Source: Adlercreutzia hattorii
Lineage (GTDB): Bacteria; Actinomycetota; Coriobacteriia; Coriobacteriales; Eggerthellaceae
Direction of reading: 5' to 3'
Assembly: GCF_011405655.1 (NCBI RefSeq)
Contig: NZ_AP022829.1
Span: 496,001-560,000 of the forward strand
DNA: 64,000 bases
In this document: one piece after another, positions 9,418 through 44,430 of the stretch
Numbering within the stretch: position 1 is the first letter of the stretch
Layout: each line of letters begins with the position of its first letter
Notes under the pieces: generated by a model
Seen by the model: only the letters and a program-made list of their open reading frames with translations
Told to the model about the DNA's origin: nothing
The model's database searches: none
Translations under genes and position numbers: made by a program

Positions 9418-11052
9418 TCACGAGCTGTGTTGCTCGCGGATTTCGCGGCGGCGGGCTTCGCGGGCTTGGGCGTATTCGCGGCGGGCGGCGGTGTCGAAGG
9501 ACTTCACCTTGGCCTGGGGTTCCTGCAGGTTGTCCACCTTGATGAAGCGGGCCATGCGGCTGGCGATGGAGTCCTCGGCGCCAGGGTTCCAGCCGATGGG
9601 CTGCATGGTGAAGCGGAACTTCTTGCCGCTTAGGAACTCGTCGGCGGAGACTTCCTCGGCTACGGTGATGGCTTGCTCCGGGCAGATGGTCTCGCAGAGG
9701 CGGCACTGCATGCACAAAGCGCTGCGATGCTCCACGCCGAAGGCGTCGTTGGCGGCGTCGAATCGGGTCAGGGCGCCGGTGGGGCAGAATACGGTGCACA
9801 TGCGGCAGGAGCGGCAGAGTTCCGTGTCGATGGTGATCTGGCCCCAGAGGCGCGTGGTCACGGTGGGGGCCGCGGGGGTGCCGAGGGCTTTCAGACTGTT
9901 GAAGAGGCGCAGGCGACGCTCGGGCACGAAGTGGGGGAGGGTACCGTCAGCCTGCACATGGGCGAACTGGGGCTCACGCGAATCAGCTTGGGACTCCTCG
10001 GGGGCGGGCTTCCGGGTAGTGCTCAGTCGCTCAGACAGTCCTCGCTCGGCGCGACAGCCCACTGGGCTGATCGCGTTCGCTGCGGAACTCGCTTGGTGAG
10101 CACCACCCGAAATCCCGCTGGCGTTTGCCATGGCTGCAGCTGCGGAACTCGCTCGGTCAGGGCACCCCGTGTCCCCGCTAGCGTCTGCCGTGGCTGTGGC
10201 GTTCGCTGCGGAACTCGCTTGGTGAGCACCACCCGAAATCCCGCTGGCGTTTGCCATGGCTGCAGCTGCGGAACTCGCTCGGTCAGAACGCCCCGTGCCC
10301 CCGCTGGCATCTGCCACGGTGGCGGCGTTCACGGCATTAGTGTCATCCTGAGCGGAGGCCGTAGGCCGGAGTCGAAGGATCTCTTGAGTGTCGGAGGCGT
10401 GCTGGAGGCGGATGCGGTCGATGGGGGAGGGGGTTCCCAGGGCGGCGAGGAGGGTTTCGGCGGAGACGATGATCTCATCGCTGAGGGCGCCGCCGCAGCG
10501 ATGAGGGCAACTCTCACAGGGGCCGCTGATGAGCTGGATGGAACGGGCGCCGCGGGCGGTGGCTTCCACGAGCAGCGACTCGTCCACGCGACCCAGACAG
10601 ACGACGCCGACAAGGGGCCGGCCGTCGGAGGTGGCACCTGCAATCTTCCCAGGGACGAAGGAGGGCGCGGTGGCATCGCAGGAGTCTCGCTTCATGCGAT
10701 TGCCGCTGGCCATTGCAAAGGCGCGCTCGCAGGCGATGGCCACTCGGCCCTCATTCTCGGCAAGAGCGGCTTCTACGGCGCCGAACAGTTCCTCGTCAGT
10801 GGGGTCGGCGGCGGTAAGGCAGCCGGTGGGGCAGGCCGAGGCGCAGGTTCCGCAACCAATGCACTTCTCAGGGGAGACGACAATGCCCTCTTCGCCCAAG
10901 GAGATGGCACCCGTGGTGCACACGGCGGCGCAGCGCAGGCAGTCCCCGTTGCGGTGGCGCACGAGTACGCAGCGCTGGGGCTCGACCGCAAGCAGCGGTG
11001 AATTCATCTCATCGATGAGGTTGATCATCTGTCCGTGGCGATAGTTAGTCAT
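9418..11052 (-). CDS. Polyferredoxin-like 4Fe-4S protein with in-frame repeat insertion
   Basis: 544 residues and probably cytoplasmic, since no signal peptide is visible. N-terminal half: CLRCAAVC and CIGCGTCASACPTGC ferredoxin motifs, then further cysteines (CESCPHRC near residue 190). C-terminal half: CRSCRMCTVFCPTG and CMQCRLCETICPEQA, two more [4Fe-4S] sites. Between the halves (about residues 220-350) lies an Ala/Ser/Gly-rich, cysteine-poor segment with two 42-residue tandem copies containing SSAAAAMANASGISGGAHQA. This segment is encoded by DNA repeats (listed separately). The start at 11052 overlaps the stop of the UvrD-like gene by 8 bases, so it is the last gene of the TorD operon. 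Likely an electron-transfer protein for molybdoenzyme maturation or redox supply; the partner is unknown. Confidence 0.8.
   Translation of the reverse strand: MTNYRHGQMINLIDEMNSPLLAVEPQRCVLVRHRNGDCLRCAAVCTTGAISLGEEGIVVSPEKCIGCGTCASACPTGCLTAADPTDEELFGAVEAALAENEGRVAIACERAFAMASGNRMKRDSCDATAPSFVPGKIAGATSDGRPLVGVVCLGRVDESLLVEATARGARSIQLISGPCESCPHRCGGALSDEIIVSAETLLAALGTPSPIDRIRLQHASDTQEILRLRPTASAQDDTNAVNAATVADASGGTGRSDRASSAAAAMANASGISGGAHQASSAANATATADASGDTGCPDRASSAAAAMANASGISGGAHQASSAANAISPVGCRAERGLSERLSTTRKPAPEESQADSREPQFAHVQADGTLPHFVPERRLRLFNSLKALGTPAAPTVTTRLWGQITIDTELCRSCRMCTVFCPTGALTRFDAANDAFGVEHRSALCMQCRLCETICPEQAITVAEEVSADEFLSGKKFRFTMQPIGWNPGAEDSIASRMARFIKVDNLQEPQAKVKSFDTAARREYAQAREARRREIREQHSS
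10020..10330. repeat. In-frame repeat island inside the polyferredoxin gene
   Basis: Two copies of a 126-base unit start at 10073 and 10199 and translate to 42-residue repeats. Each unit holds two variants of a core, GCTGCGGAACTCGC: one continuing TTGGTGAGC and one continuing TCGGTCAG. Upstream is CGCTCAGACAGTCCTCGCT. The same elements in the same order occur on the opposite strand in the intergenic island at 42723-42925. The segment is therefore likely genomic repeat DNA that has become coding. Confidence 0.85.
10339..10382. repeat. REP-like palindromic repeat within coding sequence
   Basis: Plus-strand GTCATCCTGAGC, a GC-rich GGCC-gta-GGCC centre, and CGAAGGATCTC form an imperfect palindrome. 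Dispersed repeats of this GTCATCCTGAGC/AAGGATC type are known from many bacterial genomes. Here it is translated in frame in the polyferredoxin gene, next to the other repeat island. Confidence 0.6.
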
Positions 11053-41867: not shown

Positions 41868-41975
41868 CGAACGCGCTGTGACTGACGGGTACGCGTGGGG
41901 AACCACGGGGGAGCAGCGCGCATATCCTGCCGACCGTCTGGGCAAGCCTTCTCGCAGGAGGGGCTTGCCCTTTTT
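41868..41975 (+). ncRNA. ZTP (pfl) riboswitch with terminator
   Basis: The aptamer shows the pfl hallmarks: TGACTGACGGG near 41879, GGAACCACGGGGGAGC around 41899-41914, and CCGACCGTCTGGGC at 41930-41943. The expression platform is GGGCAAGCC (41940-41948) against GGCTTGCCC (41962-41970) followed by five Ts; its left arm overlaps the aptamer 3' end, so ligand binding would open the terminator. ZMP/ZTP is the AICAR substrate pool, fitting the downstream genes. It occupies most of the 41769-42074 gap. Confidence 0.92.
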
Positions 41976-42722: not shown

Positions 42723-42925
42723 TCAACTACGGTTGAGCTTGGCGGGATGCGGGGCGCCGCTCACCAATCGAGTTCCGCAGCGAGCGCAACTGCGCACTCT
42801 CAACTACGGCTGAGCTTAGCGAAGATACGGGGTGTTCTGACCGAGCGAGTTCCGCAGCGACTGGAAATGCCCAGTGGGCATTTCCACAAAGCGAGGACTG
42901 TCTGAGCGAATCAGAATACCGCGTA
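42723..42925. repeat. Intergenic repeat island related to the polyferredoxin insertion
   Basis: Two units start near 42723 and 42800. Each begins CTCAACTACGG or TTCAACTACGG, then TGAGCTT, and later contains CGAGTTCCGCAGCGA (preceded by GCTCACCAAT or TTCTGACCGAG). A perfect hairpin GGAAATGCCCA/TGGGCATTTCC lies at 42863-42885, then AGCGAGGACTGTCTGAGCGA and CGCCCCCGAGGA. The opposite strand matches the coding repeats at 10020-10330 in the same order. Confidence 0.85.
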
Positions 42926-42968
42926 GCTTCGCCCCCGAGGACCCAGAAACATCATAGATAGGAGAATC

Positions 42969-44259: not shown

Positions 44260-44430
44260 GTCGGGCCGCGCGTGGGAGCGCGGTGCGCGCCGTGGATGAG
44301 AATGCGGCAATGCGCGTCTCGGGAAATGTGGGTGGAAAGCCCGCGCTATGCCAGTAACCGTAAGGTTCGCCGTTGCGCCGAAGGGCGCGGCGGTGGCGAA
44401 GTCGGAACACCGAGCCGAACAACAGGGCCC
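44260..44430 (+). ncRNA. Cobalamin riboswitch
   Basis: Core elements in order: GGGAA at about 44319, GGGTGGAAAGCCCGCGC, GCCAGTAACCGTAAG near 44350-44364, and a B12-box-like AGTCGGAACACCGAGCC at about 44400-44416. A GC-rich P1/P2 region lies before. The ribosome site AGGATAAGG follows within 40 bases, so control may be translational. It fills the 44151-44451 gap together with the terminator. The exact 5' boundary is uncertain. Confidence 0.8.

Follow-up and report, generated by a model that had tools for sequence, protein, structure and literature searches.

RESULTS

A repeat-derived linker in a polyferredoxin gene

The window analyzed here, a stretch of 64,000 nucleotides from Adlercreutzia hattorii, comprises positions 496001-560000 of one 2.908-Mb contig, and positions given below are those of the window unless stated otherwise. 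A polyferredoxin-like gene of 544 amino acids lies on the minus strand at 9418-11052, as identified by its open reading frame and by matches to the Pfam Fer4 family. Pfam places its 4Fe-4S domains near residues 57-80 and 406-463, and a repeat-derived linker (10002-10324) lies in between. The linker contains a complete hairpin element of a 119-nt apical variant at 10002-10120(-), which is read through in frame and folds into one long hairpin. It matches the covariance model described below at G000:C1:506002-506120 (115.8 bits, E = 9.9e-24), this copy being among the 25 in the model. Three further 5' half-elements, each composed of an outer-stem arm and GAGTTCCGCAGC, occupy 10139-10324(-), also in frame, with their GAGTTCCGCAGC motifs at 10139-10150, 10205-10216, and 10265-10276. 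They lie within a 126-nt tandem duplication, a direct repeat of 10073-10198 and 10199-10324 (91% identity) that covers the three half-elements and part of the complete element. The original prediction, made from the sequence alone, had described both this duplication and a frame that stays open throughout, and both were confirmed. It had placed the repeat segment at 10020-10330, but the complete element extends slightly outside that range.

A second, unrelated short repeat, CCTGAGCG...GTCGAAGGATCTC, is present in the linker at 10340-10390(+). Its sequence GAGTCGAAGGATCTC (GTCGAAGGATCTC type) was found at six places in the genome at ≤1 mismatch, 10340-10390 included (control, 0), and its peptide SAQDDT recurs in the protein alignment with the polyferredoxin orthologue of a related species, G006. 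An AlphaFold model of the polyferredoxin, computed from a three-sequence alignment, has a mean pLDDT of 37.8, with residues 211-370 at 20 to 28 per block and without secondary structure; since the N terminus scores nearly as low as the linker, the model is too poor to use.

The linker had been reported to match the opposite strand of a noncoding island in the same window, and BLASTN bore this out, with 77% identity over 116 nt and 74% over 117 nt (island 42723 to about 42945). Linker and island have the exact blocks TCGCTCAGACAGTCCTCGCT, GCCCACTGGGC, and TCCTCGGGGGCG in common, together with both variants of GAGTTCCGCAGC. The last motif occurs six times in the window at ≤1 mismatch, every time exactly (four in the polyferredoxin gene and two in the island), and none of 100 shuffles reached six (mean, 0.71). 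The island consists of a complete intergenic element at 42817-42934(+), of the same family as the polyferredoxin linker (G000:C1:538817-538934, 132.6 bits, E = 9.3e-28; also among the 25 copies in the model), and an extra 5' half-element at 42723-42800(+), delimited by overlapping BLAST pieces. From the sequence, the extra arm appears to be single in a second species, G001. The complete element is 99.2% identical to its G001 counterpart, with about 1 of 118 sites differing, and coding windows of 60 nt nearby are mostly 80 to 95% identical; function or recent conversion could explain the near-identity. Riboswitch matches, ZMP/ZTP and AdoCbl-II, were seen on either side of the island region, at 41868-41950 and 44302-44420.

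A dispersed family of hairpin elements

A first BLAST search with the island gave 59 matching stretches in the genome at E up to 1, self-matches included. A covariance model was then built from 25 aligned copies of this genome, so that training copies match by construction and E values are rough. The model gave 52 matches here, of which five with E values of 0.0014 to 0.0076 were left out, three of them lying opposite counted copies. The copies counted in this genome thus number 47, of one element family (46 at E = 1.1e-11 or better and one at 1.7e-6). In G001, the corresponding number is 56, with a limit of E = 1e-6. Each of the nine genus genomes searched carries the element (24 to 61 matches per genome at E = 0.001), and at least one match was present in 31 of 60 genomes of the order, this genome included. 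Across the phylum, 296 genomes were sampled, and scoring was limited to 12 candidates in each. Matches at E = 1e-5 turned up in 16 of them; 14 of these belong to the order, one lies elsewhere in the class, and one comes from another family of the phylum (68% complete). The GC content of the matches is 54 to 74%.

The element is a long imperfect palindrome that forms a hairpin of mostly 116 to 142 nt, with about 150 nt inserted. In the 25 aligned copies, the core is conserved and asymmetric (GAGCGAGTTCCGCAGCGA / AGCGAGGACTGTCTGAGCGA), and both the outer stem and the tip vary. When 69 distinct copies were aligned, 98.5% of the cells were paired, compared with 33 to 53% in slid controls, and 26 of the 33 pairs had changed on both sides. 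There were 486 double-changed cells versus 116 expected, and none of 500 shuffles reached any of five measures. As this alignment was fitted to the model, it favors pairing; an arm-swap test is free of alignment. Among the 88 copies scored (15 of 103 were left out since their anchors were not found), pairing of the 5' arm with its own 3' arm averaged -45.3 kcal/mol versus -24.3 with the arms of other copies, and the own partner was better than all 30 swapped partners in 67. The arms differ greatly between copies yet stay complementary.

Two subtypes were noticed. Thirteen own copies, among them L016, L019, and L105-L114, have a large tip (139- to 142-nt hairpin), several of them with CTCAACnAnGGTTGAG-like mini-palindromes upstream. 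Eleven own copies, among them L093-L100 and L102-L104, have the core GCGCAGGTTGCGCAGCGA / AGCGAGCCATTGCTTGAGC, and some of these lie just upstream of a start codon. Elements also often occur in close pairs of opposite orientation, 20 to 89 nt apart, such as 803387(-)/803533(+), 1391698(-)/1391907(+), 1464808(-)/1464948(+), 1752592(-)/1752732(+), and 2807703(-)/2807829(+) in G001 and 1377111(-)/1377258(+) in this genome.

In-frame copies within protein genes

The insertion into the polyferredoxin gene had been regarded as an unusual event; it is not unique. Six of the 47 copies here are in frame within genes, namely, those for polyferredoxin, TrmD, KsgA/RsmA, IorA, a DUF512 radical-SAM protein, and a protein without a Pfam match, as are six of the 56 in G001 (TrmD, the DUF512 protein, the unknown protein, IorA, an MsbA-type ABC transporter, and Mfd). 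The in-gene assignments were made from open frames, codon use, and profile matches, and several of the relatives are fragmented assemblies. The TrmD and KsgA hosts here match PF01746 and PF00398 as well as NCBIfam trmD and ksgA above cutoff, the DUF512 protein matches PF04459, and IorA matches PF01855/PF02775; in G001, NCBIfam recognizes the DUF512 protein, IorA, the transporter, and Mfd with strong scores that fall short of the curated cutoffs. The DUF512 copy of this genome is of the large-tip subtype, and those in the same gene of G001, G005, and G007 have a short tip; the IorA copy here is of the GCGCAGGTTGCGCAGCGA / AGCGAGCCATTGCTTGAGC subtype.

Seven of the eight families use the sense strand of the element and share one frame at its 5' core (ASSAA/ADSA), with IorA being antisense. 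Sense reading accounts for 10 of the 12 copies. A strand classifier agreed with the called sense of all 12, its own validation being limited to rpoC pieces that had been used to train it and a single further gene; an earlier codon model had separated sense from antisense poorly. In the 119-nt variant, the 3' core is read in another frame, giving GLSERLS rather than SEDCLSE (polyferredoxin and TrmD here, TrmD of G001 and G004). Two antisense frames are stop free in 32 and 34 of the 47 copies here, versus 18 for the sense frame, and in 43 and 46 of the 56 in G001, versus 30. Open frames alone therefore do not account for the sense bias within genes, the antisense frames being the more often open.

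Copies near a start codon that were ambiguous (394041, 1232583, and 2704837) were counted as intergenic. Open reading frames through copies 2075358, 2191305, 1483742, and 1916540 and through G001 134599 were judged to be antisense shadows; for each of the five, the strand classifier mentioned above assigns the neighboring genes to the opposite strand. Among 18 further open-frame loci in other species, six had an open reading frame by set criteria; L234 and L239 are the DUF512 gene again, and L235, L236, L241, and L243 were taken for shadows or left unclassified.

The hairpin often changes in a mirrored fashion inside genes

Eighteen in-gene copies from five families were compared (TrmD, 8; DUF512, 4; KsgA, 2; polyferredoxin, 2; unknown protein, 2). 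In these, 99.2% of the cells were paired, 19 of 33 pairs had changed on both sides, and 97 double-changed cells were counted versus 24 expected; none of 500 shuffles reached four of the five measures, and one reached the fifth. Changes between orthologous copies were then scored as double, single with pairing kept, or broken. The counts were 2/0/0 for KsgA (here/G006); 4/0/0, 4/0/1, 2/0/1, and 5/0/2 for TrmD (G007/G008, G002/G003, G007/G003, and G005/G007); 5/2/0, 13/1/0, and 12/1/0 for DUF512 (G005/G007, G001/G005, and G001/G007); and 5/1/1 for the unknown protein (here/G001). Three TrmD comparisons are exceptions (here/G004, 1/1/1; here/G001, 0/3/1; G004/G001, 1/4/0), so the mirrored pattern is frequent rather than universal. 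Template switching between the arms, a known route (PMC8794818), is one possible origin of the mirrored changes; replacement of the element by another copy and selection are others.

Silent divergence is lower in the element than in the leading codons, 0.136 versus 0.457 for KsgA and 0.046 to 0.119 versus 0.183 to 0.305 for three TrmD pairs, and amino acid divergence in the same four comparisons is higher, 0.063 to 0.096 versus 0.000 to 0.038. Across nine comparisons, element pN/pS ranged from 0.33 to 1.63, while the KsgA flank had a pN of 0.038 and a pS of 0.457; flanks were computed for four of the nine, and in the remaining five element pS was 0.10 to 0.50. With fewer silent and more amino acid changes than its flank, the in-gene element seems to be conserved as a nucleic acid structure rather than as a peptide.

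Such constraint at silent sites would also be expected of a structured cis-acting RNA with a role in processing, stability, or regulation of many transcripts, whose in-gene copies would be regulatory and only incidentally translated. The strong covariation, the conserved asymmetric core, the near-identity of the island element with its G001 counterpart, and the mostly sense orientation of the in-gene copies all fit this explanation. A regulator should, however, be co-oriented with the genes around it, and the intergenic copies are not: both flanking genes are sense to 18 and antisense to 16 of the 41 here, and the corresponding numbers are 16 and 18 of 50 in G001. This lack of strand preference speaks for a DNA element rather than for a regulatory RNA transcribed together with its neighbors. 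Moreover, in-gene positions differ among species, and no Rfam 15 family matched the element, whether in the window (gathering scores) or in six own-genome loci (E up to 1). We therefore regard the RNA explanation as unlikely and favor a DNA element.

Alleles with and without the element

TrmD carries the element in every genus genome except G006 (eight of nine) and also in one from another genus, G012. At the TrmD loci of the other 16 of 25 genomes searched, no covariance model match was found at E up to 1; the model does recover the G012 copy. Read directly, the loop is short in 15 of these 16 proteins; in G013 it is long and rich in Ser/Ala (L126), and would be either a lengthening by other means or an eroded element. 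The TrmD gene of G007 exceeds that of G006 by 153 nt, and if G006 (79% complete) is the nearest sister of the present species, loss of the insert there must be assumed. KsgA has a complete element in two of the nine genus genomes, this one and G006, and the KsgA loci of the other seven gave no match at E up to 1. The KsgA insert measures 150 nt when set against the shortest element-free allele of the genus, which has 78 nt. Element-free KsgA loops vary as well, from 78 to 156 nt among the seven genomes; the longest, in G007, may hold a half-element remnant.

These alleles bear on the possibility that fossil repeats are merely reshuffled by homologous recombination or gene conversion, with no active mobility. 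Left-arm duplications and the shared apical variant are what such exchange would leave behind, and no transposase was tied to the element in a comparison with four of six Y1 loci. At one and the same stretch of codons in two genes, TrmD and KsgA, however, some close species have the element and others lack it, which requires insertion or precise loss and not conversion alone. Recombination as the whole account is thus improbable, and insertion of an element remains our preferred reading.

The complete polyferredoxin copy is closest to the one in trmD. The two are 97.5% identical, differing at 3 of 119 positions, and form the closest of 1,081 pairs (median identity, 68%). The 119-nt apical variant occurs in 3 of the 103 copies of the two genomes, those in polyferredoxin and TrmD here and in TrmD of G001, and G004 TrmD has it as well. 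That the polyferredoxin copy is a trmD variant indicated recent copying between the two genes, and as the variant is common to TrmD of three species, passage from trmD to polyferredoxin is the simpler direction by parsimony. The polyferredoxin copy is therefore probably derived from trmD, as judged from sequence likeness, although another copy at 2087851, with 91.6% identity, makes a lost intermediate possible. The original prediction, that the island itself had become coding, holds insofar as a mostly intergenic repeat is now in-frame coding sequence; with about 77% identity to the island versus 97.5% to the trmD copy, the island was rejected as the direct source.

The only close polyferredoxin orthologue, that of G006, has a similar linker with a complete element of another variant and one half-element, the element copies differing in 29 columns. 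In another genus, the G024 orthologue is 47 to 60% identical in three pieces and has a short, unrelated hinge, in which no covariance model match was found at E up to 1; other parts of the G024 genome contain 21 copies. The Ala/Ser/Gly-rich composition and the similar linker in G006 might suggest an old protein feature, a conserved functional spacer whose DNA likeness comes from convergent low-complexity coding. Against this stand the same DNA in intergenic regions and in unrelated proteins, the element pN/pS values set against those of the KsgA flank, and the G024 orthologue, whose short hinge indicates that the linker is not old. We consider this explanation extremely improbable.

DISCUSSION

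Taken together, we infer with a probability of about 0.86 that the polyferredoxin linker is a copy of a dispersed, probably nonautonomous mobile hairpin element that is tolerated in frame. The element, abundant in Adlercreutzia and rarer in its order, would insert about 150 nt, and many of its copies have one stop-free sense frame. A copy whose length is a multiple of three and that enters a loop or hinge would be read as an Ala/Ser/Gly/Asp-rich spacer and tolerated, while selection would clear other in-gene insertions. In the polyferredoxin gene, the element presumably entered a preexisting variable hinge between the two ferredoxin halves, 5' half-elements were added, and the 126-nt block was duplicated; the complete copy would now be of trmD type after recent copying between genes, probably from trmD. 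Flank alignments around the inserts were too diverged to resolve a target site duplication or an exact end, and searches of phage, plasmid, and viral collections found no element at the sensitivities used.

More tentatively, and at somewhat less than even odds, the in-gene copies could be live hairpins, whose arms are renewed in mirror image, through template switching or replacement by another copy, while the peptide drifts and which can pass in frame from gene to gene, as from trmD to polyferredoxin. If so, these proteins would have been lengthened by a self-maintaining DNA structure and not by selection on the protein.

NCBIfam holds models of Rickettsia palindromic elements (RPEs). At E up to 0.1, none of these appeared for TrmD (two families, complete list), among the best 25 of 37 KsgA matches, or among the best 25 of 87 polyferredoxin matches. 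By analogy, the arrangement is nevertheless that of RPEs and in-frame MITEs (PMC2229807, PMC10969869, PMC3767692, PMC2635572). RPEs and Wolbachia palindromic elements resemble the present element in being dispersed, about 100 to 150 bp long, and able to form a long stem-loop. RPEs also occur both between genes and in frame in genes for conserved proteins, here TrmD and KsgA with uninterrupted orthologues; their inserts sit in solvent-exposed places, as the present ones probably do; and they form several subfamilies, with different elements near the same site in orthologues. Nearly half of the R. conorii RPEs lie in genes (PMC10969869), unlike the minority found here (6 of 47 and 6 of 56), and an RPE insert in Rickettsia gmk is described as translated, with an active protein (PMC2229807). 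The present element further differs in coming from another phylum, in being GC rich, and in the repeated addition of 5' half-elements.

The inverted-repeat structure, the many copies, and the lack of a transposase of its own recall MITEs, a likeness of structure and copy number. Bacterial MITEs with open frames include ERIC/IRU, YPAL, and the 107-bp Correia element (PMC2229807); they differ from the present element, which lies inside TrmD, KsgA, and Mfd and has element-free alleles for TrmD and KsgA. The combination of a stringent hairpin and coding in one sequence is shared with the coding palindromes of Nematomorpha mitochondria (PMC6649704), in which both arms encode conserved protein regions, whereas the hairpin here is an added spacer whose peptide drifts. 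In the literature on repeats of Adlercreutzia, Eggerthella, and Coriobacteri, with most subscription journals outside the search, we found no description of the element.

The best-documented cases of in-frame invasion by palindromes come from the intracellular Rickettsia and Wolbachia, in which they could be put down to genome decay. Gut bacteria that are GC rich and belong to another phylum show the same outcome here, in TrmD, KsgA, and Mfd. trmD is essential in other bacteria. Related species that have or lack the element in TrmD and KsgA form natural pairs for studying the cost of the insert, mobilization, and renewal by template switching. For annotation, inserts of ~50 amino acids in core enzymes can be element derived.

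REP/BIME elements are dispersed intergenic palindromes with RAYT transposases. The present element resembles them as a dispersed palindrome in intergenic regions; it is unlike them in being much longer and in lying in frame in genes. A RAYT/REP relation found no support in the four of six Y1_Tnp loci compared, with which no ends were shared, the only match being one of 16 nt at E = 0.14. The compared loci are near-identical elements of about 720 to 790 bp. Separately, two near-identical IS200-like Y1 transposase genes were seen in tandem at G000:C1:2132178-2133320, with six matches in the genome.
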